In this document: piece after piece, positions 4,624 to 64,000 of the stretch
How the letters are laid out: every line of letters starts with the position of its first letter
How positions within the stretch are numbered: position 1 is the first letter of the stretch
DNA from: Streptomyces yatensis
Lineage (GTDB): Bacteria; Actinomycetota; Actinomycetes; Streptomycetales; Streptomycetaceae
Direction: 5' to 3'
Assembly: GCF_018069625.1 (NCBI RefSeq)
Contig: NZ_CP072941.1
Coordinates: forward strand, 1,984,001 to 2,048,000
DNA length: 64,000 nucleotides
Position numbers and translations under genes: made by a program
The notes under the pieces: model-generated
Seen by the model: only the letters and a program-made list of their open reading frames with translations
Database searches by the model: none
What the model was told of the DNA's origin: nothing

Positions 4624-4663
4624 CCCCGTCCGTGCGGGGCCGGGCGGCCTCGCACGGACGGGG
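4624..4663 (-). terminator. Terminator downstream of the XRE–DUF397 operon
   Basis: A perfect 13-bp inverted repeat (CCCCGTCCGTGCG at 4624–4636 and its complement at 4651–4663) with a 14-nt loop lies 21 bp past the DUF397 stop, between it and the methyltransferase start. Confidence 0.7.
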
Positions 4664-4683
4664 AAGGTTGCGGTGCCGTGGCG

Positions 4684-4920: not shown

Positions 4921-4921
4921 T

Positions 4922-17848: not shown

Positions 17849-17894
17849 ACGGCTTCCTGACGAGTGGTGACGGAGGGGCGGTGCGGGGCGGTGG

Positions 17895-46003: not shown

Positions 46004-47251
46004 GTGACCGCAGAAAGACCCCATGCGGAGGAGCCACGCTTAGCCATCCGCGGCCCCTCGCGACGCCTCCCCCTGCGGGGCCGCACCCTCCGTTCGCTCG
46101 TGACCGCGCTCGTCTTTCCCGTGGCCGGGCTGCTGGCGCTCACCGCGGGAGGGCATCTGCTGCTCCCCTTCGACGGGGTCACCACGCTCGAAGGCAAGAT
46201 CGCCTCCAAGTCGGAGTTCTTCGAGGACGAGAAGGTCCAGCGCCTCCTGATGAAACACGGCATCAGGGTGCACATCACCCGCATGGGTTCCCGGGACATC
46301 GCCACCACCGGCTTCGACGGATACGACTTCGCCTTTCCGTCCGGCCAGCCCGCGGCCGACTTGATCAAGAACGACCGCAAGCGGAAGAACGCGTACGCGA
46401 AGGGGCACTCCGCCTTCGTCAGCCCCATCGTCCTCGCCACCTACCGCGAATACGCCGAAACCCTGCGGGACCACGGTCTCGCCACACCACGGCAGGGCGT
46501 CAGCGCGGACGGGAGCAGCACGCTCTACTACACCCTCAACATGAAGCGGTTCATCGAGCTGAGCGCGGAGGGGACGAGATGGGACGATCTCAATATCAAG
46601 AAATACCGGACGGAGAACAGCAACAGGATTCTGGCCCAGACGTCGAACGTCTGCGAGGCGAACCACGCCGGGACGTATCTGGGGCTGGTCGCCTTCGTCG
46701 AGAACGGCAACACCGTTCCGACGGACAACGCGGCGGCGGACCGCGTGGCCCGGAAGATCAAACCGACGCTCGTCTCCCAGGGGCTTCCCTCGGAGCAGAT
46801 GTTCCAGACCTACGAGGTGCCCGAGGGAAAGGGCCTGGCCCCGATCGTGGTGGTCTATGAGCACCAGTACTTCGCCTACCAGATCCGGCAGCGGCAGCAG
46901 ACCGGAAAGCCCGACTCGCAGCGGGTGCTGCTCTACCCCTCGACGCAGTTCCTGACCGAGCCCGAGTACATCGCGCTCACCCCCAAGGGCGACCGGCTCG
47001 GGGAACTGATCGAGAACGATGACCAGCTCCAGCGCCGCGCGATGGAACTGGGCTTCCGCGTCCTGGACTCCAGCGGCAAGGCGACCAGCACCGAGCTGTA
47101 CCGGTTCCTGGAGGACCAGGGCATCGCGGCGCCCGCCTCGGCGGCCAATGACACCAAGGCGACGCTGCCGAGCCTGCCGCTGCTGGAACGGATGATCACC
47201 TCCGTCGGCGACTGCCCGCCGCCGACGAGCACCCCCGGGACGTCCTCATGA
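46004..47251 (+). CDS. Membrane-anchored substrate-binding-like protein
   Basis: A 415-residue protein with one N-terminal helix (LVTALVFPVAGLLALTAGGHLLL, about residues 28–50) and a large extracellular domain. The fold hints at a periplasmic type 2 binding protein (GYDFAFPSGQPAADLIK; AFVSPIVLATYREYAETL; VVVYEHQYFAYQIRQ). It contains no VWA domain. A TTA codon at 46040–46042 makes expression likely to depend on bldA. GTG 46004 follows GGAGGAG. It overlaps the next gene by 4 bp (ATGA) and forms a three-gene operon with a binding-protein/VWA lipoprotein and a membrane protein. Function unknown. Confidence 0.75.
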   Translation: MTAERPHAEEPRLAIRGPSRRLPLRGRTLRSLVTALVFPVAGLLALTAGGHLLLPFDGVTTLEGKIASKSEFFEDEKVQRLLMKHGIRVHITRMGSRDIATTGFDGYDFAFPSGQPAADLIKNDRKRKNAYAKGHSAFVSPIVLATYREYAETLRDHGLATPRQGVSADGSSTLYYTLNMKRFIELSAEGTRWDDLNIKKYRTENSNRILAQTSNVCEANHAGTYLGLVAFVENGNTVPTDNAAADRVARKIKPTLVSQGLPSEQMFQTYEVPEGKGLAPIVVVYEHQYFAYQIRQRQQTGKPDSQRVLLYPSTQFLTEPEYIALTPKGDRLGELIENDDQLQRRAMELGFRVLDSSGKATSTELYRFLEDQGIAAPASAANDTKATLPSLPLLERMITSVGDCPPPTSTPGTSS

Positions 47252-48831: not shown

Positions 48832-49609
48832 CAACGGAATGTGGTGGAGCGTCTGGTGGCCCTGGATGCTCGTGTGGACGGCGACCGCCGTGAGCGTGAT
48901 CGCCGTCGTGGTCTGGCTGGCGGTCCGCCTCCAGCGATATCGCAGACGCTTCCGGCCGAACCCCGAGAAGCCGACCGAAGGCATCTGCCTCTACCTCCAT
49001 GACCGGGCCATCATGAACCTGTACGAGATGGGCCGTTACGAGAAGGCGCTGGAGCGGGAGGTCGAGCAGCGGATCACCCGCACCACGGACGGATCGCTGC
49101 GGGCCCGGTTCTTCGGCGCGGGCGTCAGCGGCGGCAGGAACGTCAGCCGCGAGGAAATCAGCATGTACATCGAGAGCGCCCGGCCCATCACGGCGATCGG
49201 CCTCATCGTGGACACCCTGGAGCGGACCGACGCCATCGTCCACGGCGATCTCAGGACCGGCACCATCACCTGGAACCACGCCCTGGCCCGGGCGCTGGAC
49301 ACGGTCGACCGCCCCGGTCCGGGGGCAGCCGACAGCGTCCGGCTGCGCGACATCGAGGACTTCGTCTCCATACGGGGCCGGTTCCGCAAGGCCCGGCAGA
49401 CCCCCGAGCGCACCGTCTTCCTCGCCCCGTACGGCGACCCGGAGGATCCGGCCGAGGGGCCGCAGGTCCGTGTCCTGTGCGCCACGGACGGGCTGCGCAA
49501 CGACGACAGCCACGAGGGCACGTTCCCGGCGCGCTGTCTGGGCAAGGTGCGCGACTGGAACCCGGGGACCGGTGAACTGACCATCGAGGCCATCGCGATC
49601 TTCAGCTGA
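48821..49609 (+). CDS. Single-pass membrane protein with conserved cytoplasmic domain
   Basis: A 262-residue protein. One Trp-rich N-terminal helix (MWWSVWWPWMLVWTATAVSVIAVVVWL is the region at residues ~7–33) anchors it, and a ~225-residue cytoplasmic domain follows (GICLYLHDRAIMNLYEMG… REEISMYIESARPITAIGLIVDTL… GKVRDWNPGTGELTIEAIAIF). I do not recognise the domain; the YLHDRAIMNLYEMGRYEKAL and later IVHGD parts recall DUF families found next to VWA proteins. GTG 48821 overlaps the upstream gene by 11 bp. Its position suggests it links the extracellular pair to the cell interior. Confidence 0.7.
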   Translation: MAVDNGMWWSVWWPWMLVWTATAVSVIAVVVWLAVRLQRYRRRFRPNPEKPTEGICLYLHDRAIMNLYEMGRYEKALEREVEQRITRTTDGSLRARFFGAGVSGGRNVSREEISMYIESARPITAIGLIVDTLERTDAIVHGDLRTGTITWNHALARALDTVDRPGPGAADSVRLRDIEDFVSIRGRFRKARQTPERTVFLAPYGDPEDPAEGPQVRVLCATDGLRNDDSHEGTFPARCLGKVRDWNPGTGELTIEAIAIFS

Positions 49610-49615
49610 CGTGCC

Positions 49616-49693
49616 GTGCCCCGGGGAGGTGTTCAGCGCCCCCCGGGGAGTGTTCAGCGCCTCCCCGGGGGAGTTCAGCGCCCGCGGGGCGCC
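49616..49693. repeat. 21-bp direct repeats over the diiron-oxygenase stop codon
   Basis: Three 21-bp units start at 49631, 49652 and 49673 (GTTCAGCGCC…GGG.GA), with a partial copy before them. Read on the minus strand each unit contains GCGCTGAAC, so the oxygenase's stop (TGA at 49677–49675) recurs at 49656 and 49635. The period is exactly seven codons. Inner CCCCGGGG palindromes can form short hairpins between the convergent genes. Confidence 0.75.
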
Positions 49694-50643
49694 CCCGGGT
49701 GCGTTCGGCCGAGCAGCAGGCTCCGGCGCCACAGCGGGCGCTGGAGCGCGGTGATCATTCCGGCGTCGGTGAGGAAGGCGACCAGGCGCTCGCCCGCCCA
49801 GCGCATGGTCCGCCGGAAGTGCGGATTGGCGCGGGCCTCGCGGGCGGCGCGGCGCGGGTCGAGGCCCACGGCCCGGTAGATCGGGGCGTTGGTGTACGTG
49901 CTCATGGCCAGCATCGCGCACCAGGCGGTCAGCTGCCGGTGGAACTCCAGGACGGCCCCCGGCCTGCGGCGCGTGGCGTCCAGGAGTTCGGAGTGGGCGA
50001 AGCGGATATGCCGCGACTCCTCCACCACATGCAGGCGCGACACCTGCCGTACGAGGGGCTGCAGCCGCTCGTCGCCCATGGCCTCCCGCTGGAAGCGGTC
50101 GTAGACCTCCTCGATCAGCAGCGCGGCCGCGAACAGGCTCGCGCCGCGCAGCTGCGGGAGCACCGCCCGGCCCAGGTGCCGGACGAGGGCGGGCGGCCGG
50201 TAGGCCGGGCAGCCGAGGGTGCCGAGGGCCCGGCCGAACATGGCGACGTGGCGCGTCTCGTCGGCCACCTCGCTCAGCGCGTAGTGGGTGCGTGGCGACG
50301 CCGGATCGCGGGCGGTCAGCTGGCCGGTGAGCATCTGCATCAAGGTCAGCTCGAACCAGGTGGCCATGCTGATCATGTTGGCCCATTCGCTGCGGGAGAG
50401 CGCGAGGCGCCGCTCCTCGCTCAGCCGGTGCCAGGTGGGGGTGGCGTACAGCGACATCCGCTCCGGCTGGAGATACCAGTGACCGGGCTCGGGCGGGGCG
50501 TCCCAGTCGATGGCGAGGGCCGGGTCGTAGGTGTGCTTGGCCGCGGTGCGCAGCAGCCGTCCGGCCACCTCGGCCGGTGTCTGGCGTGGCGTGCCCGTGG
50601 GGGCGGGCGCGGACCGGCCCCTCCGCGGCTGTGGTTCGCTCAC
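49675..50643 (-). CDS. AurF-like diiron oxygenase
   Basis: A 322-residue protein of the AurF/p-aminobenzoate N-oxygenase family. The two ligand motifs are EVADETRHVAMFG (about residue 126) and HVVEESRHIRFAHSELL (about 208), with further Glu in EWANMISMATWFE and IEEVYDRF. AurF oxidises an aromatic amine; family members in other clusters hydroxylate or desaturate carbon chains. The start overlaps the PKS stop by 4 bp (GTGA/ATGA type), so it is translated with the PKS and should act on its product, either bound to the carrier protein or after release. The C-terminal ~20 residues and stop lie in a 21-bp repeat array. Confidence 0.85.
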   Translation of the reverse strand: MSEPQPRRGRSAPAPTGTPRQTPAEVAGRLLRTAAKHTYDPALAIDWDAPPEPGHWYLQPERMSLYATPTWHRLSEERRLALSRSEWANMISMATWFELTLMQMLTGQLTARDPASPRTHYALSEVADETRHVAMFGRALGTLGCPAYRPPALVRHLGRAVLPQLRGASLFAAALLIEEVYDRFQREAMGDERLQPLVRQVSRLHVVEESRHIRFAHSELLDATRRRPGAVLEFHRQLTAWCAMLAMSTYTNAPIYRAVGLDPRRAAREARANPHFRRTMRWAGERLVAFLTDAGMITALQRPLWRRSLLLGRTHPGAPRGR

Positions 50644-53600
50644 CGCGCACCGCCTGCCGTGACCGAGCGGTCCGGTCCGGCCTGGGCCGGGACGGGCAGC
50701 GGTCCTGCTGGGGCTTGGACTTCGGTGGCGGCGGGGGATTCCGTCGCGGGGCCGTGGATGCCCGGGCCGGGGATGCCCGGGCCGGGGATGCCCGGGCCGG
50801 GGATCCCAGGGCCCGGCGGGGCCCCGGGGGGAGCCGTGACCTGCAGTCCCAGCCGGAGCTGCACGATCCTGGCGAACTCGGCGATGGTGCCGTTGCTGCG
50901 CAGCAGTTCCATGGGCGGGATGTCGAGTTCGTAGCGCTGATTGAGCGAGACGAGCACCTGAGCGGCCATCAGGGAGTCCATGCCGTACGAGTCCAGGCGC
51001 CGGTGCGGGTCGAGTGCCTCGTGATCCATCTGCAGGACCTCCGCGAGCAGGCGGGTGAGCTGGTCCACGAGGTGGGCGAGGGCGGTCTCCTCATCCATGA
51101 GGGAGAGCCGGCGCAGGAGTTCCTCGCGAGTGGCCTCCCCGTCCCCCACCTGGGGCGGTACGAGGTCGCCGAGGCGCGGGGCGCGCAGCAGGGGCAGCAG
51201 AACGGCGGCGCGCGACCAGTCCGTCCGGGAGACGCCCACCACCGCGGGGGCGTCCGGCCGGTCGTCGCCGAGCAGCCGTCGGCCGTGGTCGAGGGCGGTG
51301 TGCGGGGCCAGGGGCTCGATGCCCAGGCCGAGGAGGGAGTCGAGCAGGTCGTTGCGGGCCGCGTAACCGATCTCGCCGATGGCGCCCCAGGCGAGGGTGA
51401 GCGCCGCCTCGCCGTGCCGGCGGCGCAGCCGGGCCAGGCCCTCCAGATAGAGGTTGCCCGCCGTATAGGCCGACTGCTTGAAGTTGCCCACCATGGCGGT
51501 CGTGGAGGAGTAGCACAGGAAGAAGTCCAGCGGACGCCCTCGGGTCAGGGTGTCCAGGACATGAGCTCCGGCGATCTTGGGCCGCAGGACGGCGCTCATC
51601 CGCTCGGCGGTCAGCTCGGCGAGGGGTGCGTCGTCCAGGGCCATGGCCGCGTGGACCACACCGCGCAGCGGACGGCCGTTCTCGTCGATGTCCTTCAGCA
51701 CCCGGCGCATCGCCTCCACGTCGGCGACGTCCGCGGCGTACGCGGTGACCCGCACCCCGTCCGGGGCGAGCGCGTCGCGCACGGCGGCGGCCTCCGGACC
51801 GTGGGCGCCACTGCGGCTCACCAGGGCGAGGTGCCGGGCGCCGAGCCCGGCGAGCCATCGCGCGGTGGCCGCGCCGAAGCCGCTGGTGCCGCCCGTGACG
51901 AGATAGGAGGCGTTCGGGTCGAGTTGGGGTGTGCGGGGCGTGGCGGACGTCGCCCGTGCGGGTGGACAGGTGGACGAGTCGGCGGGTTCGACGGCGCAGG
52001 GCTCGTCCAGCGGGTCGAACGTGACGACGACCTTGCCGATATGGCGTGAGTGGCGCATCAGCACGAAGGCGTCCGCCACGCGGGCGGCGGGGAAGACGGT
52101 GTGCGGCAGCGGCTGGAACTCCGGGCCTTCCCCCGGCGCCTGGCCGTCCCCCAGGGTCCGCCCCACGCCCCCCAGGGTCCGGCCCACGTCCTCCAGAAGG
52201 TCACCCAGCAGCCGGGGGTCGCGCAGCACGGTGGTCAGATCCACGCCGTGGAAGGAGATATGGGAGCCGAAGGGGCGCAGCGGCAGGGTCCGGTCCTCGT
52301 AGAAGTCGCGCTTGCCGAGTTCGATGAAGCGGCCGCCGGGGCGGAGCACTTCCAGGCCCCGCGCCAGGGCCTGTCCGGAGAGGGAGTTGAGGACGATGTC
52401 CACTCCCCTGCCGTCGGTCACGTCCATGACCTGGACGGTGAAGTCCAGCGAGCGCGAGTCGAGGACGTGTTCCACACCGAGTGCGCGCAGCAGGTCGCGT
52501 TTGGGCTCGCTGCCCGCCGTGGCGATGACGGTGGCGCCGTGCGCCCGTGCGGAGTGGAGGGCGGCCAGGCCGACGCCACCGGCCGCGCCGTGCACGAGCA
52601 CGGTCTCCCCCGCCCGCATCCGGGCGGTGTACAGCAGGCTGTAGTGGACGGTGCACAGGGCGACGGGCACGCTCGCGGCCTCCGCGAAGGTGACGCCCGC
52701 GGGGATCGGCCACAGGTTTCGGGCCGGGCTGACCACATGGGACGAGAGCGCCCCGGCCAGCAGCCCGACGACCCGGTCCCCGGGCGCGAAGCGGTCCACG
52801 CCGGGCCCGCAGGCGGTGACCACGCCCGCGCATTCGAGTCCGAGGTTCTCCTCGCGTGGACTGCCGGCCAGTGCCTCCGTGGGCAGCAGCCCGACCGTCT
52901 GCATGATGTCCCGGTAGTTCAGGGCGGCCGCGCGCACCTCGACGATCACCTCTCCGGGGCCCGCGACCGGCGGGGGGATCTCCTGCCAGGCGAGGCGGTA
53001 GGAGAGGCCGGGCCTGCGCACGCGGAGGGCGAACGGCGGCGGGGTCGCGCCGTCGGCGAGGGGGACGGCGGGCGGCAGGGCGCGCTCGCGCGGGACGAAG
53101 CGGTCGTGCGCGGTGAGCACGATCTCGTCCTCGTCGTCGGCGTCGGCGGTACCGGGGGCCTTGGTGTCGAGCAGTTCGCGGACCAGCCGGGTGGCGTCCG
53201 CGGCCGGGTCACCGCCCCGGCACAGGCTCAGGCGGCGCCCGCGCAGATCGGGTTCCTCGTTGGCCAGGCAGCGTGCCACGCCCCAGGCGGCGGCGTCGGT
53301 GGGGTGGGTGATCGGTCCGGGGGTGGCCTCGCCGCCGTGCGGCCGGGTGACGAGCCACAGCCGGACCCCGGCCGGCGAACCGAGGGACCGGTGCGCCTCC
53401 GCGACGGCCCGCAGCGTCTGACCGGCGTGGGTGGCGCGGGCGACGGCCTCCTCGGCGTCGTCGGGTTCGGCGCCGCCCAGGATCAGGACGACGGTCGTCT
53501 CGCCGGTGCCGGCCCCGCTCAGCGCCCGGCCCCACGCGGCGGCGTCGGTGTGGGCGTCGGTGAGGACGCTGTGCCCGGCGCCGTGTGCGGTCAGCGCCTC

Positions 53601-56600
53601 GGTGACGGCGAGGGGCAGCGGGTCGTCGGCCGTGTCGCCGCAGACGATGTACGCGGCGGACGGGGCGGGGGGCGGCGGTGCGGCGGCGGGGGCGGGGGTG
53701 CCACCGGCCGCGGCGAGGAAGACGGAGGCGTGGTCGCGTCCGGGCTGCTCGCTGTCGCCGGTGCGGGCACAGGAGGTGAAGCCGCACCGGCGCAGGAGCG
53801 CGGGCCACTGCTCGCGGGTCAGCAGCGGGGAGCCGGGCCGCAGGCCGGTGTCGGTGCGGTGGTGGAAGCTGTCGAGGGCGCCGAAGACGGGGAGCAGGAG
53901 CTCCGGCTCGTGGCATTCGAAGGCCAGCAGGTGTCCGCCGGGCGCGAGGAGCGAGGCCACGCGGCCGAGGGCGGGCTCCAGGTCCTTGGCCGTGTGCAGT
54001 GCGTTGGCGGCGATGACGAGGTCGAAGCCCTGTGGGTGGTAGCCCTGTTCGGCGAGGTCCCGGTCCAGGTCGAAGGTGCCGTACTCGACGAAGTCGTAGT
54101 CGCCGAAGCGGTTGCGGGCGCGGGCCGGATAGGCCGGTGAGACATCGGTGTAGCGGTAGCGGGTGCGGTCGGCGGGCAGCAGGGGCAGCAGCGCCGCGGC
54201 CATGCCGCCGGTGCCGGCGCCGATCTCCAGGACGCGCAGCGCGCGGTCGGCGGGCCAGTGGGCGAGCAGGGTGCGGAGCAGGGCCTGGGCGAGGCGGTTG
54301 TGGAAGCGGGAGGCCGGCGCGGTGTCGTAGTACTGCTCCAGGAGGTGCCCGGCCGATTCGGCGCTGAGCAGTGCCAGGGCGTTCGCGCGGCCGGTGAGGA
54401 CGTCCGCCAGGTGCCGGGTCAGATGTGTCGCCAGGGCGATCCGGTGCACATCCCCGGGGGCCCGGACGAGGGCCTCGCGCACCGGCGGCGGGGTGTGGCG
54501 GGCGTCGGGGGTCAGGCACCGGCCACCGCCGGGGGTCTCGGTGAGCAGGCCGCGGCGCAGCAGGAGGGGTTCGAGCAGGGCGAACAGGGGGCGGTGGCGC
54601 TCCTCCATACCGGCCGCCACGAGGTCGTCGGCGGTGAACGGCGCCGCGGGGTCGGGCAGCAGCCGGGCCAGTGCGGCGGCGGCCGAGCGCGCGGTCAGCT
54701 CCTCGTCATGACGCGAGGTCAGGTCGTAGCGGGCCTCGCGCCACCGCTCCCGTACGGCGTCCAGGCGCGGGGCGGCGTCCCGGAGGATCGCCTCGGGCGG
54801 CGGCAGGGGTGAGGGCGCGGCCGGGAGATGGGGGCGGGGAGCGGCCCGCGGAACGGTGTGGTGGAGGGTGACGGGGGTGGTGCGGGCGATCGGGAACAGG
54901 CGCAGCCGGCACTCCTCCAGGCGTGCCGTGACGGTGCCGTCGGCGTCCGCGACCGTGATGTCCCAGCAGACCTCGCTGTCGGTGGCCTCGCGTTCGGTGA
55001 CCCACATGATCCCGGTGGGCGACGGCGCCGACCACACCCGCACCGCGCCGATGGACGCGGGCAGATAGGCGCCCCGGTCCCGCAGCCGGTCGTGGAGGAG
55101 GGCGACACCGGTCTGGAGGGCTCCGTCGAGCAGCGCCGGATGCGCGGTGTACGGGGCGCCCGGGGCCTCGTGGCGGTAGGTGGCGACCGAGGTCCGCGCC
55201 CCCAGGCGCACCTCGTCCAGCGTCCGGAAGGCGGGCCCGTAGACGAGCCCCACCTCGGCGCAGGCGGCGTAGTGTGCCTCGCCGCTGATGCGTGTCGTGC
55301 ACCGGGCGCGCAGCCGCTCCGGGTCCACCGGCCCGGGCCGGGGACTCAGCAGCGGGCGCACCCGGGCCCGTGCGTGTGCCCGTGGCTCCGGGCCGCGCTC
55401 GTCGGTGCTGGTGACGGTGGCGAGGGTGGTGTCGGGGTCGAGGCCGACCCGCAGCCGTACGGCGGAGGCGTCGGCCCAGGGCACCACGAGGCTGGCGCTG
55501 ACGTCGAGGTGTGCCACCTCGACCGGCCGTCCGTGCACGGCGCGCCCCGCGGCGAGGAGCGCTTCGGCGTATCCGGTGGCCGGCATGACGACCGATCCGC
55601 CGAGCCGGTGGTCGGCGAGCCAGGGCACGAGGACGGGCTCGATCGCGCCTTCCCAGCTGGGGACGGCGGTGGGCATGCGCTCGCCGAGGAGAGGGTGGAC
55701 GATGACGCCGTCACCGCTGGAGTTGGCCCAGGAGCGGGGGGTGCCGGACCAGTGGCGCTCGTACTGCCATGGGTAGGCGGGGAGCCGGGTGACCCGGCCC
55801 GGCACCGGGAAGTGCCGGGTGAGATCGGCCGAGGCCCCGGCCGCGAGCGCTCCGGCCGCCGCCGCGCCGAGGGCGGCGGGACCGTCCGCCCCGCGGCGCA
55901 GGGTCGGCAGGACGACGGTGCGGCCGGTGCGGGTGCCGGAGCCGGTCCCCCTGCCGGCCTTTCCGCTCCGGGACGTGAGGCGCCGGAGGTAGGCGCGCAG
56001 GACGGGATGGGGGCCGATCTCCAGGAGGATGCCGGCCCCGTCCGCGAGGGCGCGCCGCACCGCGTCCGCGAAGAGGACCGGGCGGCGTACGTTCTGCCAC
56101 CAGTACGCCGCGTCGAGATCGGTGCCGCGGGCGCGGAAGCCGGTGACGGTCGAGTAGAACGGCACCCGGACCGGCGACGGCGTCACCTCGGCCAAGCGGG
56201 AGCGGAGTTCGTCCTCGGTGGGGTCCATGTGGCGGCTGTGGAAGGCGTAGTCGAGGCCCAGGTCGCGGAAGAAGACACCCTCGGCGGCGAGTTCCGCGCC
56301 GAGCAGGTCGAGGGCGGCGGCGTCACCGGCCACCGTGACGTCCTCGGCGCTGTTGACCCCGGCGATCTCCAGCTTCTCCCCGTACCCGGCGAGAGCCTTC
56401 GCGGCCCGGTCGGCGGACAGCCCGACGGCGGCCATCCGGCCACTACCGGCCGTGGTCCCCTGCACCCGGCCACGTTCGGCGATCACCCGCGCCGCGTCCG
56501 GCAGGGACAGCGCTCCGCAGATGTGGGCGGCGGCCACTTCCCCGACGCTGTGGCCGACGACCATGGCGGGCTCGATCCCCCGGGCACGCAGCACCGCGGT

Positions 56601-58661
56601 GATGCCCAACTGCACGACGAAGAGGAGGGGCTGGGCCACCTCCGTCGCCCCGAGGTCCGCCTCCCCGGCGGGCGCGGTGAGACGATCGGCCACCGACCAG
56701 CCCAGACGCGGCGCGAGCTCGGCGTCGGCCTCGCAGACGGCACGACGGAAGACGGCATCGGCGTCGAAGAGATCCGCCCCCATGCCCGCCCATTGCGAGC
56801 CGTTCCCACAGAACACGAAGGCGACACGCCCGCTATCGGCGGCGGGACTCACCGCGCCGGGGGCGGGGACGGCTGGCGCCCGGGTGGGGGCGGCGGTCGA
56901 GGGCTTGGCGGGCGCGGCGGGTGTGCCGGTGGGCGTGGCCGGTGTGTCGTCGGCTGCGGCCGACTGCCCGCCGGGCGCGGCCGATTCTCCGTCTGGCGGG
57001 GTCGGCTGCCCGGTGGGCGCGGTCGGCTCCCCAGTGGGCGCGGCCGACTCTCCGGCGGGCGCAACCGGCTCCCCACCAGCCCCGCCGGCACGCGGCAGCC
57101 CCGGCTCGGGGTCCGGCGCCGTCAAGGCGCGCAGCCCCCGCGCCGCTTCCCCAGGCGTGGTGGCCCAGACGACGGCGCGGTGTTCGTGGCGGCCGCGGCG
57201 GAGGCAGGAGGTGTGGGCCAGGTCGTAGAAATCGGCGGGGGGCGTTTCGTCCAGGTGTGCGGCGGTGGCCTCGGCCGCCTCCGACAGGGCCTTGGCGGTG
57301 CGGGCCGAGACGAGCAGGGGCACCGGTGAGCTGGGGGGTTGCGGGCGGTTCGGCGGGGGCGGGGGGTCGGCCACGATGGCGTGGGCGTTGGCGCCGCCGA
57401 AGCCGAAGGAGTTGACCCCGGCCACGGCGCGCCCGCCGGTCGCGGCGGGGGCGAGGGCCGTGGGCCGGGTGGTGAGCCGCAGTCCGAGGCCCTCGAAGTC
57501 GATGTCGGGGTGCGGCGGTTCGGCGTGGAGGGAGGCCGGTGCGGTGCGGTGTCGCAGCACCATGAGGGCCTTGAGCAGACCGGCCATGCCGGACGCGGGC
57601 TCCAGATGGCCGAGGTTGGTCTTCACCGAGCCGAGCGGGAGGGCACCGGAGATCCGGCGTACGCCGAGGGCCCGGCCGATGGCGAGGGCCTCCAGCGGGT
57701 CGCCGACCGGGGTGCCGGTGCCGTGCGCCTCGAAGTACACCAGCTCGTCGGGGTGCACCCGGGCGCGGTCGTAGACCTCGCGCAGCAGCCGCTCCTGCGC
57801 CTCGGGGCTGGGCAGTGCGAGCCCCATGGTCCTGCCGTCGCTGTTGCTGCCGGTGCCCAGGACGAGCCCGTGGATCCGGTCGCCGTCGGCCACCGCGTCC
57901 GCCAGCCGTTTCAGCAGCACCACGCCGCCGCCCTCGGCCCGGACGAAGCCGTCCGCGTGTGCCGAGAAGGAGGCGCACCGGCCCCGCTGGGAGAGCATCG
58001 ACGCCTGGGAGAACCCCACGTAGTGGAACGGGCTGAGCAGCACATTGACCCCGCCGCAGACGGCGGCCCGGCCACCGCCCTCCCACAGCGTGCGGCAGGC
58101 GCGGTCGAGGGCCACCAGGGAGGAGGAGCAGGCGGTGTCGATCGCCATGCTGGGCCCGCGCAGATCGAAGGCGTGTGAGAGCCGGTTGGCGGCGATCGAC
58201 GAGGCGGCGCCCGACATCGTGTAGGCGCCCACCGTGCGCAGCGCGGACATCTGGAGCGCACCGTAGGAGGCGTCCGAGATGCCGACGAACACCGCGGTGT
58301 CCGAACCGGCCAGCGTGGCGGGGTCCACGGCGGCGTCGTCCAGCGCCTCGGCGGTCATCTCCAGCAGCAGCCGGTGCTGAGGGTCCATGTGGGCCGCTTC
58401 CTTGGGGGAGATCCCGAAGTAGGCGGCGTCGAATCCGGCCACGTCCTCGAGGAAACCCCCGGCCGCGGTGTACGACTTGCCCCGGCGCGGCACGGCGGGG
58501 TCGGTGAACAGGCGGGCGTCGAACCGGTCCGCGGGCACCTCCGCCACCAGGTCCCTGCCCTGCTCCAGGGCCTCCCAGAGCCCGTCAAGGTCCCGGATGC
58601 CGCCGGGAAGCCGGCAGGCCGCCCCCACCACCGCGATCGGTTCGGCCTCGTCCTGACGCAT
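50640..58661 (-). CDS. Highly reducing iterative type I polyketide synthase (KS-AT-DH-MT-ER-KR-ACP)
   Basis: A 2,673-residue single-module PKS. KS ~7–435: Cys178 in DTACSSS, then EAHGTGTPVGD and KTNLGH. A Pro/Thr/Gly-rich linker (~500–600). AT ~620–910: GHSVGE near 702 and AFHS, malonyl-type. DH ~985–1260: DHRLGG…P and HPALLDGAL. MT ~1330–1660: LEIGAGTGG near 1484. ER ~1860–2180: ALNYRDIM, GAAGGVG. KR ~2245–2430: TGGTSGFGAA and catalytic Tyr in SAYTAGN. ACP ~2520–2600: Ser in YGMDSLM. No thioesterase. The order is that of fungal-like highly reducing PKSs, so the product should be a reduced, possibly methyl-branched chain. Four GPGIP repeats end the protein. ATG 58661; the AurF gene overlaps its end. 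Confidence 0.93.
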   Translation of the reverse strand: MRQDEAEPIAVVGAACRLPGGIRDLDGLWEALEQGRDLVAEVPADRFDARLFTDPAVPRRGKSYTAAGGFLEDVAGFDAAYFGISPKEAAHMDPQHRLLLEMTAEALDDAAVDPATLAGSDTAVFVGISDASYGALQMSALRTVGAYTMSGAASSIAANRLSHAFDLRGPSMAIDTACSSSLVALDRACRTLWEGGGRAAVCGGVNVLLSPFHYVGFSQASMLSQRGRCASFSAHADGFVRAEGGGVVLLKRLADAVADGDRIHGLVLGTGSNSDGRTMGLALPSPEAQERLLREVYDRARVHPDELVYFEAHGTGTPVGDPLEALAIGRALGVRRISGALPLGSVKTNLGHLEPASGMAGLLKALMVLRHRTAPASLHAEPPHPDIDFEGLGLRLTTRPTALAPAATGGRAVAGVNSFGFGGANAHAIVADPPPPPNRPQPPSSPVPLLVSARTAKALSEAAEATAAHLDETPPADFYDLAHTSCLRRGRHEHRAVVWATTPGEAARGLRALTAPDPEPGLPRAGGAGGEPVAPAGESAAPTGEPTAPTGQPTPPDGESAAPGGQSAAADDTPATPTGTPAAPAKPSTAAPTRAPAVPAPGAVSPAADSGRVAFVFCGNGSQWAGMGADLFDADAVFRRAVCEADAELAPRLGWSVADRLTAPAGEADLGATEVAQPLLFVVQLGITAVLRARGIEPAMVVGHSVGEVAAAHICGALSLPDAARVIAERGRVQGTTAGSGRMAAVGLSADRAAKALAGYGEKLEIAGVNSAEDVTVAGDAAALDLLGAELAAEGVFFRDLGLDYAFHSRHMDPTEDELRSRLAEVTPSPVRVPFYSTVTGFRARGTDLDAAYWWQNVRRPVLFADAVRRALADGAGILLEIGPHPVLRAYLRRLTSRSGKAGRGTGSGTRTGRTVVLPTLRRGADGPAALGAAAAGALAAGASADLTRHFPVPGRVTRLPAYPWQYERHWSGTPRSWANSSGDGVIVHPLLGERMPTAVPSWEGAIEPVLVPWLADHRLGGSVVMPATGYAEALLAAGRAVHGRPVEVAHLDVSASLVVPWADASAVRLRVGLDPDTTLATVTSTDERGPEPRAHARARVRPLLSPRPGPVDPERLRARCTTRISGEAHYAACAEVGLVYGPAFRTLDEVRLGARTSVATYRHEAPGAPYTAHPALLDGALQTGVALLHDRLRDRGAYLPASIGAVRVWSAPSPTGIMWVTEREATDSEVCWDITVADADGTVTARLEECRLRLFPIARTTPVTLHHTVPRAAPRPHLPAAPSPLPPPEAILRDAAPRLDAVRERWREARYDLTSRHDEELTARSAAAALARLLPDPAAPFTADDLVAAGMEERHRPLFALLEPLLLRRGLLTETPGGGRCLTPDARHTPPPVREALVRAPGDVHRIALATHLTRHLADVLTGRANALALLSAESAGHLLEQYYDTAPASRFHNRLAQALLRTLLAHWPADRALRVLEIGAGTGGMAAALLPLLPADRTRYRYTDVSPAYPARARNRFGDYDFVEYGTFDLDRDLAEQGYHPQGFDLVIAANALHTAKDLEPALGRVASLLAPGGHLLAFECHEPELLLPVFGALDSFHHRTDTGLRPGSPLLTREQWPALLRRCGFTSCARTGDSEQPGRDHASVFLAAAGGTPAPAAAPPPPAPSAAYIVCGDTADDPLPLAVTEALTAHGAGHSVLTDAHTDAAAWGRALSGAGTGETTVVLILGGAEPDDAEEAVARATHAGQTLRAVAEAHRSLGSPAGVRLWLVTRPHGGEATPGPITHPTDAAAWGVARCLANEEPDLRGRRLSLCRGGDPAADATRLVRELLDTKAPGTADADDEDEIVLTAHDRFVPRERALPPAVPLADGATPPPFALRVRRPGLSYRLAWQEIPPPVAGPGEVIVEVRAAALNYRDIMQTVGLLPTEALAGSPREENLGLECAGVVTACGPGVDRFAPGDRVVGLLAGALSSHVVSPARNLWPIPAGVTFAEAASVPVALCTVHYSLLYTARMRAGETVLVHGAAGGVGLAALHSARAHGATVIATAGSEPKRDLLRALGVEHVLDSRSLDFTVQVMDVTDGRGVDIVLNSLSGQALARGLEVLRPGGRFIELGKRDFYEDRTLPLRPFGSHISFHGVDLTTVLRDPRLLGDLLEDVGRTLGGVGRTLGDGQAPGEGPEFQPLPHTVFPAARVADAFVLMRHSRHIGKVVVTFDPLDEPCAVEPADSSTCPPARATSATPRTPQLDPNASYLVTGGTSGFGAATARWLAGLGARHLALVSRSGAHGPEAAAVRDALAPDGVRVTAYAADVADVEAMRRVLKDIDENGRPLRGVVHAAMALDDAPLAELTAERMSAVLRPKIAGAHVLDTLTRGRPLDFFLCYSSTTAMVGNFKQSAYTAGNLYLEGLARLRRRHGEAALTLAWGAIGEIGYAARNDLLDSLLGLGIEPLAPHTALDHGRRLLGDDRPDAPAVVGVSRTDWSRAAVLLPLLRAPRLGDLVPPQVGDGEATREELLRRLSLMDEETALAHLVDQLTRLLAEVLQMDHEALDPHRRLDSYGMDSLMAAQVLVSLNQRYELDIPPMELLRSNGTIAEFARIVQLRLGLQVTAPPGAPPGPGIPGPGIPGPGIPGPGIHGPATESPAATEVQAPAGPLPVPAQAGPDRSVTAGGAR
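50755..50815 (-). repeat. 15-bp repeats encoding GPGIP at the PKS C terminus
   Basis: Three near-perfect CCCGGGCCGGGGATG units (50761, 50776, 50791) plus partial flanking units encode a Gly-Pro-Gly-Ile-Pro tail after the ACP. The tail is not part of any PKS domain and is likely flexible. Confidence 0.75.
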
Positions 58662-59096
58662 ACCGGGGCCTTTCTCCAGTCACTTCGCGACACCGGCGGG
58701 AAGCCCGCGTCACGCTCTCGGCAGCGACGCACACTAGGCCAGACGGACGACCGCCGAGGCCCTCTGTACACCCGTTGGAGGGAACGGCGGCGAAGTGCAC
58801 TCGGTGAGGTGAACGGAGCCGACCCGGACCGCTTAGCCCATTCGGGTGATGTACGTCGACAGGCCCCTGCAGAGCGCGCGTACAGAGCGTGCATGTGGCG
58901 GGCCGGGCGGCGCGGCGGGGTGCGGTCGGTGTGATGTCCTCGGCACGCGCCCCGGCGCGCTCACCGGCGCGATCACCCGCGCGGTCACCGCGCGGTGGGA
59001 ACCGCCACCGCAGCGCGTGCCCCCTCGGATCCGCCGCCGGATCGCCCCGCCGGATCCCCATGCCCCGCACCCGCCCTTCGACGTCTGGAGCCCGCC
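58662..59096. promoter_or_regulatory. Divergent control region of the polyketide cluster; no gene
   Basis: About 435 bp between the divergent PKS and reductase genes. It must hold both promoters. GC content is lower at 58735–58780 and 58845–58890 than in the coding DNA. I see no clear operator or riboswitch. Small ORFs here have no ribosome site and no family resemblance. No regulator gene is found in the cluster. Confidence 0.4.
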
Positions 59097-60251
59097 ATGG
59101 CCGTACTCTTCACCGGCGCGACCGGTTTCCTCGGCAGCCGCATCCTGCGCCACCTGCTCGCCGAGGACGGCGACGACCGGCCCGTCACCGTCCTCGGCCG
59201 GGGAGGGGAAGGGAGTCTGCGGGCGCGGGTCGAGACGGCCCTCGACGGGCTCGACGGCCTGGCGGGCGCCGCGACGCCGCGCGGGCGGCTGCGGTACGTG
59301 TCCGCCGACCTCACCCTGCCCGGCCTCGGCCTCACCGACGGCGAGCGCCGCGCCCTCACCGACGCGTGCTCGGTGGTCTGGCACTGTGCCGCGCACCTCG
59401 CACTGCACGACGACCCGGTGCCGCTGTTCAAGGCGAACGTCCTCGGCACCCGGCGCGTCCTCGACCTGGCCACGGAAGCGGCCGGGGCGCGGGTCGTCCA
59501 CCTGAGCACCGCGTACGTCGCCGGAGGCCGCGCCGAGGGACACATCCGCGAGGACGACCTGGACGGCGGCCACGGCTTCCTGACGCCGTACGAGGAGAGC
59601 AAGTACACCGCCGAACGCGCGGTGCACGCCTGGAGCGCCCGTACCGGCCGGGGCGCCACGATCCTGCGGCCGTCGCTGCTCGTCTCCGACCGGCCCGTCC
59701 ACGGCAGCGGACAGCGCCAGCCGCTGGCGGTGCTGGCGTTCCTCATCCACGAGGCGCTGCGCCGCAGGGCCGAGGACGACCCGGCGCTCGCCTCGCTCCT
59801 CGACGGTGGCGACGCCCACGGCAGCGGTCTGCGGGTGCGGGTCCGCGCGGGGAGCGGCGGGGCGCTCAACCTGGTCCCGGTGGAGTACGCGGCCCACGCG
59901 GCGGTGTGCGCCGCGCGAGCGGCGGCCCGCCCGGGCGCCCCGGCGGGGGTGCGCACCGTGCATCTGACCCATCCGCACAACACCCCCTTCGCCACCGCCG
60001 TGAAGGTCCTGGAGCGGCTGTACCCGGGGCTGACCCTGGACCTCGTGGACGAGCTGGACGACCCGGACCCCTACGAGTCGCTGTTCGCGCACCACCTGGC
60101 CTCGCTGCTGGTCTTCACCGCGCAACGCAGGACGTACGACCGGAGCAACCTGCTGCACGACACCGCGGGCCTGCCCGACCCCGAGCCCCTGGACGCCACC
60201 TACCTCGCCGACGCCGCCGGAGAGGCGGTGGCACCCGCCCCGGCCGCCTGA
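59097..60251 (+). CDS. Thioester-reductase-type SDR (NAD-binding 4 family)
   Basis: A 384-residue protein with the N-terminal NADP site LFTGATGFLG (residues 4–13) and active Tyr–Lys pair in YEESKYTAE (about residue 165), the signature of extended SDRs that reduce carrier-bound or CoA thioesters, such as the reductase domains of NRPSs and fatty acyl-CoA reductases. It would release the chain from the PKS as an aldehyde or alcohol, which the PKS itself cannot do because it lacks a thioesterase. ATG 59097 follows GGAG; earlier frames lack a site. Its C-terminal ~35 residues (LPDPEPLDATYLADAAGEAV) are repeated twice downstream, after the stop. Confidence 0.85.
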   Translation: MAVLFTGATGFLGSRILRHLLAEDGDDRPVTVLGRGGEGSLRARVETALDGLDGLAGAATPRGRLRYVSADLTLPGLGLTDGERRALTDACSVVWHCAAHLALHDDPVPLFKANVLGTRRVLDLATEAAGARVVHLSTAYVAGGRAEGHIREDDLDGGHGFLTPYEESKYTAERAVHAWSARTGRGATILRPSLLVSDRPVHGSGQRQPLAVLAFLIHEALRRRAEDDPALASLLDGGDAHGSGLRVRVRAGSGGALNLVPVEYAAHAAVCAARAAARPGAPAGVRTVHLTHPHNTPFATAVKVLERLYPGLTLDLVDELDDPDPYESLFAHHLASLLVFTAQRRTYDRSNLLHDTAGLPDPEPLDATYLADAAGEAVAPAPAA

Positions 60252-60599
60252 CGAGTCCCCCACGACTCGGCGGCCCGTCGGGGCACGGAGGTGGCGAGGC
60301 CAACGCTGCTCCACGACACCGACTGGCCGCCCGACCCCAAACCCCTGGACGCCGTTTACCCCGTCGACGCGGCCGGAGAGGCGGTGGCACCCGCCCCGGC
60401 AGCCTGACCGGTCCCCCACGACTCGGCAGCCGCCGGGGCACGGAGGCGGCGAAGCCAAGCCCGGGACGTACGCCCAGAGCAAGCTGTCCGAGGACACGGC
60501 GGGCCTGCCGGACCCCAGGCCCCTGGACGCCGCCTACCTCGCCGACGCCGCCGGAGAGGCGGTGGCATCCGCCCCGGCCGCCTGACCCCTCCCCCACGG
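60131..60599. repeat. Triplicated 3' end of the reductase gene
   Basis: The last ~120 bp of the reductase gene, its stop and the following ~45 bp occur three times in tandem. The stops are at 60249, 60405 and 60583 (periods 156 and 178 bp). Copies 2 and 3 still read as a reductase tail (LLHDT…PLDA.Y…DAAGEAVAPAPAA, then LPDPRPLDAAYLADAAGEAV). The spacer CCCCCACGACTCGGC also recurs. Copy 3 encodes, on the other strand, the end and stop of the acyltransferase (60534–60536, TAG); the same antisense stop is present in copy 1 at 60200–60202. So the array expanded from a point where the two convergent genes overlapped. Confidence 0.85.
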
Positions 60600-62009
60600 C
60601 CCCGCCGTGGCCAGCACCCGCAACTCCCCCAGCCAGGCGTCCGCGAACGACTCGGCGACCCGGCGCGGCTCGGAGGTGGTGAAGCCGGCCACGGCCCGGC
60701 CCTGGGCGGTGGCCAGGACGGCGGACATGCGGTGTCCGGCCGGGAGGAAGTTCAGCGGCAGTACGCGCAGGACCCGCCGCCCGGCCACCACCAGCGGGGA
60801 CGAGGGGCCCCGCACATTGCTGGCGAGCAGGGTGGCGCGGGCCGGGTCGAAGTACCGCTCGAAACACCATCCCCCGGCCGCGGCGGGGACGGACCGGAAC
60901 ACCGCGCGCACCAGCGGATGGCGCAGTGCGCGGGCGCGGCCCGCCGTGCGGGCGGCGACGAGGGCGAGGCGGCGTCCGGCGTCGGGCTCCGCCACGGGGA
61001 GCGGGATCCGGAGCGGGATATGGCGGTTGCGCAGCACGGCCGCGTCCCCGGGCCCGCGGACGTTCACCGGGACCAGGGCGCGCGACTGCCCATGGGGGCC
61101 GTGGAGTTCGGGCCGGGTGCGCAGCGCGCCGCTCAGGGCGGCGAGGTAGACGTCGTTGACGGTCGTGCCGTGGCGGCGGGCGATGCCACGCAGCAGGCCG
61201 AGGTCGGTCTCCACGCAGGCGTAGGAGAGGGTGGCGGGCGGGCCACCGGCGGCTTCCGCCACGTTCCCCCGGCGCCGCGCCAGCAGGGGCGTCCCGCACA
61301 GCCAGGCCGCGCGCAGCGGATCGGTGACGGCGCGGTGCGGGGCGCCGCGCGCCCGCCAGGGTTCGGCCCGCGCGGGGGAGGCCGTGGCGGTGTCCGGGCC
61401 ATGGGCCTCTGGGCCATGAGCGCCCGAGCCAAGGGCCGCCGAGCCATGTGCGCCCGAGCCATGAGCGCCCGTGCCAAGCGCACCCGGACCGTGAGCGCCC
61501 GGCCCAAGGGCCGCCGAGCCATGAGCGCCCGAGCCATGAGCGCCCGTCCAGGCGGCGAGTAGGCCGACCACTCCCGCCCCGTCGAGCAGCCGGTGGTCCG
61601 CCCGCCACACCAGGGCGGACGTGTCGCCCTGCAGCCCCGCCACCGTGGAGCAGGACCAGCGGTGCGGCTCCAGCGGCCTCGCCAGCGCCTCGTGCGCCAC
61701 GTCGGACAGCCCCCGCTCCGGACCGGCCTCGGCGTTCCCGTCCGCGCCACTCCATGGGTCGCCGTCCGAGGGCCCGGTGCCCAGCAGTTCCGTCACCGGC
61801 CGTAGCGAGGCGGCGAGTTGGCGCCGGTCGGGAGGCGGGCCCTCCAGCTCCAGCACCACGCCGATGGTCAGTCCGGTGCCGGGGTGCGCCTTCCCGTACG
61901 CCACGAGAGCCGCGTCCGGAAACGGCAGTTTCCCGGTCGGCTTCCCCGCCGCCGTCCCGGTCGACTTCCCCACCAGCCCTCCGGTCGGCTTCCCACGCTT
62001 GCCCGTCAT
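60534..62009 (-). CDS. WS/DGAT-like acyltransferase (condensation fold)
   Basis: A 491-residue protein of the wax-ester-synthase/diacylglycerol-acyltransferase and condensation-domain superfamily. The active-site motif is WRADHRLLDGAG (about residue 137), a variant of HHxxxDG whose second, catalytic His is kept. Late motifs VNDVYLAALSGALR, LVPVNVRG and ASNVRGPSSPL match the family's NDVVLA, PVSxR and NVPGP. A ~50-residue Gly/Ala/His repeat is inserted at ~150–200. It probably joins the reduced polyketide alcohol and an acyl-CoA into an ester. ATG 62009 abuts GGAGG, so an earlier GTG near 62042 may be used. Its last ~17 residues lie in the repeat copies of the neighbouring gene. Confidence 0.78.
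   Translation of the reverse strand: MTGKRGKPTGGLVGKSTGTAAGKPTGKLPFPDAALVAYGKAHPGTGLTIGVVLELEGPPPDRRQLAASLRPVTELLGTGPSDGDPWSGADGNAEAGPERGLSDVAHEALARPLEPHRWSCSTVAGLQGDTSALVWRADHRLLDGAGVVGLLAAWTGAHGSGAHGSAALGPGAHGPGALGTGAHGSGAHGSAALGSGAHGPEAHGPDTATASPARAEPWRARGAPHRAVTDPLRAAWLCGTPLLARRRGNVAEAAGGPPATLSYACVETDLGLLRGIARRHGTTVNDVYLAALSGALRTRPELHGPHGQSRALVPVNVRGPGDAAVLRNRHIPLRIPLPVAEPDAGRRLALVAARTAGRARALRHPLVRAVFRSVPAAAGGWCFERYFDPARATLLASNVRGPSSPLVVAGRRVLRVLPLNFLPAGHRMSAVLATAQGRAVAGFTTSEPRRVAESFADAWLGELRVLATAGPWGRGQAAGADATASPAASAR
61395..61560 (-). repeat. 15–30-bp repeats encoding a Gly/Ala/His insert in the acyltransferase
   Basis: Units of GAGCCATGAGCGCCC and AGCCAAGGGCCGCC type repeat about ten times and encode GAHGSGAHGSAALGPG-like sequence. 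The insert lies between the catalytic motif and the next conserved block, so it is probably a surface loop. The repeat sequence is nearly identical between units, which suggests recent expansion. Confidence 0.75.
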
Positions 62010-62280: not shown

Positions 62281-62877
62281 GTGACTTCAGCGAACGGGCG
62301 CAGGCGCGCCCTCGTCCATACGGCGGCCCTGGGACTGCTGGCGGCCTCGGCGACCGCCGTGGCCTTACTGGGGCAGCAGCCCCCGGCCCGCGCGGCCGCC
62401 GAAGCCCCGGCCGTGCCCCTGCCGTTGACCTGCAAGGGCACGGCCACGGTGGAGCCCACCAACCCCGACCTGGTGCTCGTGCGCGACCAGAGCGGCGTCG
62501 CGGGCTACCGGGCCACCATCACCGGAAACTGCCTCGGCTCCGCCGTGGTCTCCAAGGTGCGGGTCACCCTGGAGGGCATGGCCGAGGGCACCTGTGCCGC
62601 GGCCATCGGCACCGGCACCGGCACGGCGGAGTGGATCGGGCCGGGCGGTGCGCGGGTCGGCACCAGCACCGGTGGCGGCAAGCTCCACTTCACCAACGAC
62701 GCCGACGGCAACGTCACCTTCCGGGCCGAGAACGTGCAGATCGCCAGGGGCCTCTTCGCAGGCTCCGTGGGCGTCGACATCACGGTGAACGACCGCGGTG
62801 TGGGCCGGGACTGCTGGACGCAGGGCAGGCTGGCCGGCGGCTCGGGCAGCGGCTCAGCGCGGCTGACGTTCGGCTGA
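62281..62877 (+). CDS. Small secreted protein
   Basis: A 198-residue exported protein. A signal peptide (ALVHTAALGLLAASATAVALLG) precedes a single ~150-residue beta-rich domain with two cysteines likely to form disulfides (LTCKGTATVEPTNPD, TGNCLGSAVV, EGTCAAAIG, RDCWTQGRL). I cannot name the family; the layout is that of actinobacterial secreted beta-sandwich proteins. GTG 62281 follows GGGAGAAG. A TTA codon at 62365–62367, in the signal peptide, makes it a bldA-dependent candidate. Its 3' end overlaps the convergent MMPL gene by 24 bp. Confidence 0.72.
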   Translation: MTSANGRRRALVHTAALGLLAASATAVALLGQQPPARAAAEAPAVPLPLTCKGTATVEPTNPDLVLVRDQSGVAGYRATITGNCLGSAVVSKVRVTLEGMAEGTCAAAIGTGTGTAEWIGPGGARVGTSTGGGKLHFTNDADGNVTFRAENVQIARGLFAGSVGVDITVNDRGVGRDCWTQGRLAGGSGSGSARLTFG

Positions 62878-64000
62878 CGCCCCGGCGGGGGCCGGAAGCC
62901 GTGCCGCGTGTTCCGGGGCGGCCTCCGGTCGCCCGCCCTTGCCGGTACGCCATTTCCGCCCGCCCTTACCCGAACGGGACTTCCCGGCCGTGCCGGAGCT
63001 CCGAGAGAAGGGCCACCACCAGTTCGCCGCGCCGAGCAGCCGCATCACGGCGGGTACCAGGACCGCCCGTACGAGCACCGCATCGATCAGCACCGCCAGG
63101 AAGACACCGACGCAGATCTCCTTCACCATGACCACGCTGCTGGTCGCGAAGCAGGCCGTCACCACCAGAACGGCCGCCGCTGCGGCGCTGATCACCCGCC
63201 CCGAGCGCTCGATCCCCACCGCCACCGACTCCCGGTCGTCCCCGAGCAGGCGGTACTGCTCCCGGATGCGCAGCAGCAGGAACAGTTCGTAGTCCATGGA
63301 CACCGCGATGAGGAGGAACAGCATGACGATGGGGGCCAGCGCGTCCACGTAACCCGTCGGTTCGGCGCCGAGCGGCCGGCTGGCGTGTCCGTCCTGGAAG
63401 ATCCAGGTGAGGGCGCCGAAGGAGGCGCCGATGGACAGGCCGTTCATCACCAGCGCCTTGAGGGGAAGTACGAGCGAGCGCAGGGCGACGGTGAGCAGCA
63501 CCAAGCTCGTGATCACCATGAAGGCCAGCACCCGGGGCAGCAGCCGGTAGAAGGTGTCCATGGTGTCCACGGCGAGGGCCGACGCGCCGCCCACCAGCAC
63601 ACCGCTGCCGCCGGGTACGGGCAGCGCGCGCACGGCCCGTACCAGTGACTTGGCCGATTCACTCTCCACCCGCTGGTCCTGGCCGACGTAGACGACGGCC
63701 TTGTTCCCGGTGGTCCCGGCCACCAGCACCCCACGGGCGCCGGGGAGTCCGGAGACGTGCCGCGTCCAGGTCAGCAGGTCGGCGTGGCCCCGGCCGCGGT
63801 CCACGGGGTGGTCGAAGGTGGCGATGGCCTGCAGGGTGCCGAGGCCGGAGACGGCGAAGTCGTGTTCCATGCGTTCGGCCGCCACCCGGGCCGGCGCCCC
63901 GGCGGGCAGCATCCGCTGGTCCGGGAAGCCGATGACGGTGTGCAGGAACGGCACCGCGAGGGCGAGCAGCAGCGCGGAGACGGCGCAGGTGTAGGCGATG
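62854..64000 (-). CDS. MMPL/RND-family transporter (C-terminal part, cut by the window edge)
   Basis: The visible 381 residues are the C-terminal half of an MMPL-type transporter; the start lies beyond the window. They comprise a membrane helix at the edge (AVSALLLALAVPFL), an extracellular domain, and a six-helix bundle (LPRVLAFMVITSLVLLTVALRSLVLPLKALVMNGLSIGASFGAL in pieces). The signature AVSMDYELFLLLRIREQY (about residue 220 of the fragment) holds the Asp-Tyr pair used for proton relay. A basic tail (SGKGGRKWRTGKGG) ends it. MMPL proteins export lipids or polyketides in actinobacteria, so this one may move the polyketide ester made next door. Confidence 0.9.
   Translation of the reverse strand, partial: IAYTCAVSALLLALAVPFLHTVIGFPDQRMLPAGAPARVAAERMEHDFAVSGLGTLQAIATFDHPVDRGRGHADLLTWTRHVSGLPGARGVLVAGTTGNKAVVYVGQDQRVESESAKSLVRAVRALPVPGGSGVLVGGASALAVDTMDTFYRLLPRVLAFMVITSLVLLTVALRSLVLPLKALVMNGLSIGASFGALTWIFQDGHASRPLGAEPTGYVDALAPIVMLFLLIAVSMDYELFLLLRIREQYRLLGDDRESVAVGIERSGRVISAAAAAVLVVTACFATSSVVMVKEICVGVFLAVLIDAVLVRAVLVPAVMRLLGAANWWWPFSRSSGTAGKSRSGKGGRKWRTGKGGRPEAAPEHAARLPAPAGASAERQPR

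Follow-up and report, generated by a model that had tools for sequence, protein, structure and literature searches.

Known systems and the Streptomyces yatensis block

The mycobacterial MAS/Pks2-PapA-MmpL loci bring together a lipid polyketide synthase (PKS), an acyltransferase and an MMPL exporter, and the same three kinds of gene lie together in the stretch of Streptomyces yatensis DNA analysed here (64,000 nucleotides, bases 1984001-2048000 of the single 10.36-Mb contig NZ_CP072941.1, referred to as the window). Mycocerosic acid synthase (MAS), unlike the synthase of the window, is not known to have a C-methyltransferase domain or a stand-alone reductase at its side; the M. tuberculosis synthase Pks12 has two modules rather than one. 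The window encodes a single-module highly reducing type I PKS (HR-PKS) of 2673 amino acids (aa; 50640..58661, minus strand), which is flanked by an AurF-type ferritin-like diiron protein of 322 aa (49675..50643, minus strand) and a stand-alone thioester reductase of 384 aa (59097..60251, plus strand), followed by a WS/DGAT-like acyltransferase of 491 aa (60534..62009, minus strand) and an MMPL family exporter. Our reading of this block, to which we assign a probability of roughly 0.5, is that an iteratively built polyketide chain would be released by the reductase, capped with an acyl group and exported by the MMPL protein, with an oxidation contributed by the diiron enzyme.

Of the systems described elsewhere, swf of sponge symbionts (the PKS/fatty acid synthase SwfA and SwfB) is similar in that, in the available sections of PMC3908369, a mono-modular reducing PKS without a thioesterase in its stated domain order is combined with a thioester reductase and a transferase able to cap the product. 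It differs in that SwfA (KS-AT-DH-ER-KR-ACP) is without a methyltransferase, in the fusion of a sulfotransferase to the reductase (SwfB) and in its radical SAM partner, and the same sections mention no WS/DGAT, AurF or MMPL protein; conversely, a Pfam scan of seven proteins of the window returned no sulfotransferase match. Pks12, according to the accessible part of PMC11574752, is likewise a reducing PKS without a chain-terminating domain, for which reductive release by a neighbouring short-chain dehydrogenase/reductase-phosphotransferase fusion has been hypothesised, but its cap is a phosphate and it serves alkyl-phosphate lipids. The sphingolipid PKS PfSgaA is, like that of the window, a single-module iterative bacterial enzyme, although its partner is an alpha-oxoamine synthase and the gene set of the window is not described in the portions of PMC12134224 that were available.

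The logic of a PKS combined with a reductase and a cap can be considered already known from swf and Pks12, and the version with an acyl cap appears undescribed. An earlier interpretation made from the letters alone (here termed the sequence-only reading) had not recognised this gene set in any characterised cluster, nor did the literature searched, mostly outside subscription papers, yield one.

Recurrence of the gene set across Streptomyces genomes

The neighbourhood of the PKS, reductase and acyltransferase genes is not a matter of chance. Whole-genome searches of 295 Streptomyces genomes, in which six to nine candidates were scored per genome (AurF-like protein, seven; methyltransferase fragment of the PKS, six; reductase, six; acyltransferase C-terminus, nine) and counts represent lower bounds, retrieved 44 reductase matches in 40 genomes and 46 acyltransferase matches in 43. 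Of the 44 reductase relatives, 17 have an HR-PKS methyltransferase match no more than 20 kb away, against an expectation of 0.24, and nine of the 46 acyltransferase relatives have a reductase inside the same distance (expected, 0.12), these expectations presuming genomes of 8.5 Mb and random placement and ignoring relatedness. The window's own group contributes three cases to each of these two counts. The PKS set used for pairing comprised 57 matches (E-value ≤1e-55) and four weaker ones added for lying in loci of interest; with the strong matches alone, 14 of the 44 reductases remain paired. Two contig-end reductase loci (G213:C254 and G121:C66) were counted as misses though a ketosynthase adjoins the reductase, and one of the 17 (G213:C66) was counted via a PKS 18 kb away while another PKS adjoins it (L143).

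A second set of 40 loci (L068-L107), chosen by PKS similarity only, holds 41 of the 54 strong PKS matches outside the window's group. A strong reductase match was present in ten of these loci (L068, L071, L072, L074, L077, L082, L094, L099, L102 and L107) and an MMPL gene in eight; weaker reductase-like matches of 49-57 bits (L090, L093, L095, L097 and L101) were not counted. In a midpoint-rooted KS-AT tree of 47 sequences (omitting L106, in which no KS motif was found, L144 and frames below 1900 aa), all ten tips of the window's clade (L138, L071, L072, L074, L082, L068, L037, L025, L026 and the window) are associated with a reductase, and five of them (L068, L071, L072, L074 and L082) had been chosen regardless of this gene. 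Loci L139/L143 and L094/L099 fall in a separate reductase-bearing part of the tree.

Complete three-gene cores also occur at a distance, in loci which were selected for the closeness of reductase and acyltransferase and which show existence, not frequency (gene calls in relatives' loci follow a GC-based heuristic). Locus L138 retains the layout of the window, with PKS (minus), reductase (plus) and acyltransferase (minus) at 40-70% identity; in L139 all three genes share a strand in the order reductase-PKS-acyltransferase, the latter two overlapping at an ATGA, and in L143 they follow in line in the same order. Two short contigs of one genome (L145 and L153) resemble one such core cut in two. 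Partial combinations were observed as well: reductase and acyltransferase are paired in L140-L142 without an HR-PKS of the window's type; acyltransferase and MMPL genes share a stretch in L146, L147 and L149, overlapping in L147; and in L029, L032 and L034 an AurF relative of 47-48% identity directly follows an MMPL gene, with a KS-like gene nearby; a Pfam-confirmed FabH-type gene is present in L029 only, where an ACP-like open reading frame (ORF) was also noted by eye. Each of the five main genes has relatives paired with another of them elsewhere, which does not hold for the small ORF next to the MMPL gene. The sequence-only reading had treated PKS, reductase and acyltransferase as a linked set, which these cores and the pairing counts bear out. 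Together they argue, at the sequence level, for a PKS-reductase-acyltransferase unit that recurs in Streptomyces, where single-module PKSs of this kind are common.

The L138 core is flanked by inverted 1690-bp copies of 100% identity (3426-5115 and 16791-18480 of that locus), each with a 423-aa transposase-like ORF that is IS110-like by eye. The core thus lies between the two copies as if movable.

Proposed chain assembly, reductive release and acyl transfer

Pfam domains and motifs of the PKS, in order from its N-terminus, comprise a ketosynthase (KS) with C-terminal extension (residues 7-497; 57171..58643; TACSS, EAHGTGT and KTNLGH), an acyltransferase domain (AT; 615-927; 55881..56819; GHSVG and YAFHS), a dehydratase (DH; 989-1257; 54891..55697; PS-DH, HRLGGSVVMP as HxxxGxxxxP, and DGALQ from the translation), a C-methyltransferase (MT; 1456-1628; 53778..54296; LEIGAGTG and ANALH), an enoylreductase (ER; 1901-2213; 52023..52961; ADH_N/ADH_zinc_N, VLVHGAAGGVG), a ketoreductase (KR; 2251-2429; 51375..51911; TGGTSGFG, with LDD and SAYTAGN from the translation) and an acyl carrier domain (ACP; 2533-2598; 50868..51065; PP-binding, GMDSL), all on the minus strand. 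The KS-AT-DH-MT-ER-KR-ACP order within one protein and the lack of a thioesterase domain, both proposed in the sequence-only reading, are upheld by the Pfam scan. Catalytic motifs look intact in all domains; some pattern matches fall outside the intended domain, and those of the window were verified on the translation. An alignment of the MT with CurJ and LovB revealed a shared S-adenosylmethionine (SAM) motif (LEIGAGTG) and histidine (ANALH). Inactive MT, ER or KR domains, which would have spoken against the reading, were rejected, as none is visibly inactive. The AT motifs lean towards malonyl-CoA, without settling specificity.

Bacterial iterative type I PKSs were reportedly treated by Wang et al. 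(2020, PNAS). Iteration is likely for the PKS of the window, judging from its single module and the lack of a partner PKS within the conserved block, and many bacterial iterative PKSs are now described (PMC12134224, section 9, among the available text). The architecture, which had been called rare in bacteria and fungal-like, is not rare within Streptomyces, the genus surveyed: strong matches to the MT fragment (E-value ≤1e-55) number at least 57 in at least 39 of the 295 genomes, with 48 of the 57 in open frames of ≥2400 aa, and at 1e-25 at least 89 genomes match. A protein search with the DH-MT region matched 1206 of 8000 scored candidates (E-value ≤0.001); among the 120 matches listed, most are ~2500 aa long with the same Pfam domains, and the named organisms are all actinobacterial. 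The fungal likeness holds for domain order but not for sequence, since the best relative in the Protein Data Bank (PDB) is mycocerosic acid synthase, with LovB ranking lower. Against the cut-off of 2400 of the Pks2-type family NF041183 (NCBIfam), the PKS scored 1022.

The first step would then be the iterative assembly of a reduced, possibly C-methylated chain on the synthase's own ACP. Because the PKS carries no thioesterase, release is assigned to the neighbouring reductase, which would deliver an aldehyde or alcohol, and reductive release is the best supported step of the proposed pathway. The reductase matches PF07993 (NAD_binding_4; 126.9 bits against a cut-off of 20.1, E-value 1e-36), possesses GxxGxxG, ST and YxxxK motifs and aligns across these with the MxaA reductase domain, while remaining below the TIGR01746 (NCBIfam) cut-off (108.6 vs 213.35). 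Its gene is divergent from that of the PKS, with an ATG near 59097, at a position identical across four aligned copies, as the best start, and a scan of named organisms returned one locus among the matches listed. In L074 (14526-15669) the reductase gene beside the PKS is itself split across two frames, through gene breakage or an error in sequencing.

That the released alcohol would next be esterified with an activated acyl group is read from the acyltransferase itself and from its repeated occurrence beside reductase and PKS genes. This protein (start from the protein database, in agreement with the end given in the sequence-only reading) passes both Pfam cut-offs (WS_DGAT_C, 31.6 vs 20.7 bits; WS_DGAT_cat, 24.5 vs 23.6), consistent with the WS/DGAT-type assignment made earlier. 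Across the 28 aligned acyltransferases, the HHxxxDG motif always keeps its second His, its Asp and its Gly, and an ND pair is likewise invariant; the first position holds Asp in 13 rows, those of the window's protein and its 12 nearest relatives, and His in the other 15. The top fold matches by E-value of its predicted model (predicted local distance difference test, pLDDT, 75, with low confidence across a low-complexity insert) are the wax synthases 7nxg and 6chj (AbWSD1 and MaWSD). The insert is encoded by tandem repeats of 15-, 30- and 75-bp units (61394-61554) and its length differs strongly among orthologues. An 80% identical acyltransferase (P0252) comes from a 1.1-Mb contig that bears the label Stenotrophomonas sp. 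NPDC087984, for which a mislabelled or mixed assembly seems a likelier cause than transfer.

Export of the lipid would fall to the MMPL protein (Pfam E-value 6.8e-29), which follows the acyltransferase as had been stated in the sequence-only reading; its C-terminal part is encoded at 62854..63999 (minus strand), and ~1.1 kb more, encoding the N-terminal part, lies beyond the window's edge (L023, 3-1091). What the AurF-like protein catalyses is inferred, as are a strict wax ester, methyl branching and export by MMPL. Such a cluster would be a source of natural parts for making reduced or branched alcohols and esters.

A number of observations weigh against the pathway as a whole. Strands alternate along the block (-, -, +, -, +, -), so that it is not one operon and co-expression of its genes is a presumption, and the synteny of AurF-like, PKS, reductase, acyltransferase, small ORF and MMPL genes in two further genomes (82-96% identity) was rejected as proof of coupling because the flanking genes are also syntenic in these two nearest relatives. 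In the pairing count, 27 of the 44 reductases and 37 of the 46 acyltransferases are without the respective neighbour; 30 of the 40 PKS-picked loci have no strong reductase match, and neither an acyltransferase nor an AurF-like gene was found in any of the 40 within stretches of 17-20 kb. In L071, a member of the reductase-bearing clade, a thioesterase gene directly follows the PKS, so release there could be hydrolytic. By pattern search, L138 lacks both the SAM motif of the MT and the ER motif, L139 lacks the SAM motif, and L143 lacks the DH and MT-His patterns; methylation and full reduction are therefore not constant among such cores, which may differ from the window in chain chemistry. Finally, the acyltransferase scores below the WS/DGAT cut-off of TIGR02946 (NCBIfam; 112 vs 309.95), its active-site motif is DHRLLDG, without the first His of HHxxxDG, and its fold scores are modest (template modelling, TM, scores of 0.47-0.50), with condensation domains scoring similarly by this measure.

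The alternative that survives best, though we consider it doubtful, is of a mycobacterial type: the acyltransferase would move the polyketide acyl chain from the PKS to a sugar, alcohol or other acceptor, the MMPL protein would export the product and the reductase would serve a side or later step. PapA5 with MAS provides a precedent for such direct transfer, PKS-acyltransferase-MMPL sets typify mycobacterial lipids, and both the closest solved PKS relative (MAS) and the overlapping PKS and acyltransferase genes of L139 are consistent with it. Branched long-chain esters have also been made in E. coli via a mycobacterial PKS-based system (PMC5064953, as far as its available text goes). However, the reductase is a more constant partner of the PKS than the acyltransferase (10/40 vs 0/40 loci), and the reductase-acyltransferase pairs lacking this PKS (L140-L142) are better explained by the joining of an alcohol and an acyl group.

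It is considerably less probable that acyltransferase, small ORF and MMPL genes are ordinary neighbours of a true unit consisting of AurF-like protein, PKS and reductase, as the alternating strands, the wider synteny and the absence of the acyltransferase from the 40 PKS-picked loci could suggest. The distant three-gene cores, one with overlapping genes, and the nine acyltransferases near a reductase where 0.12 were expected argue for membership of the acyltransferase, less so for the MMPL protein and not for the small ORF.

The AurF-like protein, cluster borders and minor features

For the polyketide-ester pathway, the AurF-like diiron enzyme would add an oxidation of the chain, or of a nitrogen in the product, in one sub-lineage. 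It matches PF11583 (E-value 2.2e-82), and its GTG start sits within the PKS stop (GTGA, a 4-bp overlap), in accordance with the translation of both genes together that had been proposed. E98, DExxH, E178/E179 and HxxEExxH are kept in 21 of 21 aligned relatives. PF11583 and the ferritin-like fold are shared with the AurF and CmlI N-oxygenases and with CylC-type dimetal halogenases, and the DExxH of AurF is retained (DETRH in the window's protein), whereas the second metal-site motif of AurF is HxxDExxH, with aspartate in place of the first glutamate (PMC12101540, available sections); the QExxH of the halogenases (PMC12101540 and PMC8406957, in the parts available) is not present. As no PDB sequence match was obtained at 0.001, the protein was compared through its predicted fold (pLDDT 90), the best matches of which are CmlI and AurF (TM ~0.6).

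An orthologue of 95% identity was found in two of the 295 Streptomyces genomes besides the window's own, with the remaining matches among those listed at ≤48%, and a protein search (8000 candidates scored) gave none at 53%-97% identity among the best 120 of 263 matches. In S. samsunensis (L037), PKS, reductase and acyltransferase are present with no AurF gene adjoining the PKS; the draft genome holds one relative of 43% and one of 21% only, and the MMPL position would fall past the contig end. For S. tremellae and strain NPDC047002, acyltransferase and PKS orthologues lie on contigs of equal size. Because of the S. samsunensis copy, the lack of listed relatives at 53-97% and the S. tremellae/NPDC047002 contigs, the AurF gene looks like a recent, optional addition in one sub-lineage. 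Locus L025 is without an AurF label in the tree only since its stretch ends early, and L024, from the same genome, has the gene. Presence and absence on otherwise similar clusters offer a natural pair for probing the role of this diiron subfamily.

A further-reaching and tentative proposal, which we hold to be unlikely as it stands, is that a mobile PKS-reductase-acyltransferase core marks out a class of Streptomyces polyketide esters that has gone unrecognised, and that the HxxEExxH branch of AurF-like proteins acts on carbon of the lipid chain or aldehyde, not on nitrogen. We know of no AurF-type oxygenase with such a substrate. A nitrogen route, in which a transaminase encoded elsewhere would convert the aldehyde to an amine for N-oxygenation by the AurF-like protein and N- or O-acylation by the acyltransferase, is the least probable alternative, since despite the N-oxygenases AurF and AzoC (PMC12101540; PMC6783550, available parts), the arylamine oxygenase CmlI (PDB title) and the fold matches to AurF and CmlI, there is no obvious nitrogen-supplying gene in the cluster, the seven proteins scanned contain neither an aminotransferase nor a non-ribosomal peptide synthetase nor an amine-forming domain, and the three core genes persist without AurF in S. 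samsunensis.

Close protein relatives are found in S. violaceusniger, S. malaysiensis, S. sp. 11-1-2, S. antimycoticus and S. melanosporofaciens, and protein similarity thereby assigns the cluster to the S. violaceusniger group. In two close relatives, the genes found here at 46.0-49.6 kb (46004-49609) survive as short remnants or are missing, pointing to a left border at about 49.67 kb; beside the S. samsunensis cluster they are also remnants or not found. The small ORF (62281..62877, plus strand), which has a signal-like N-terminus by eye and no Pfam match, is of uncertain membership; it is convergent with the MMPL gene, overlaps its 3' end and is conserved in two relatives. Outside the cluster, ~1 kb of GC-rich tandem repeats (42346-43369) was observed, with periods of e.g. 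25, 151 and 227 bp.

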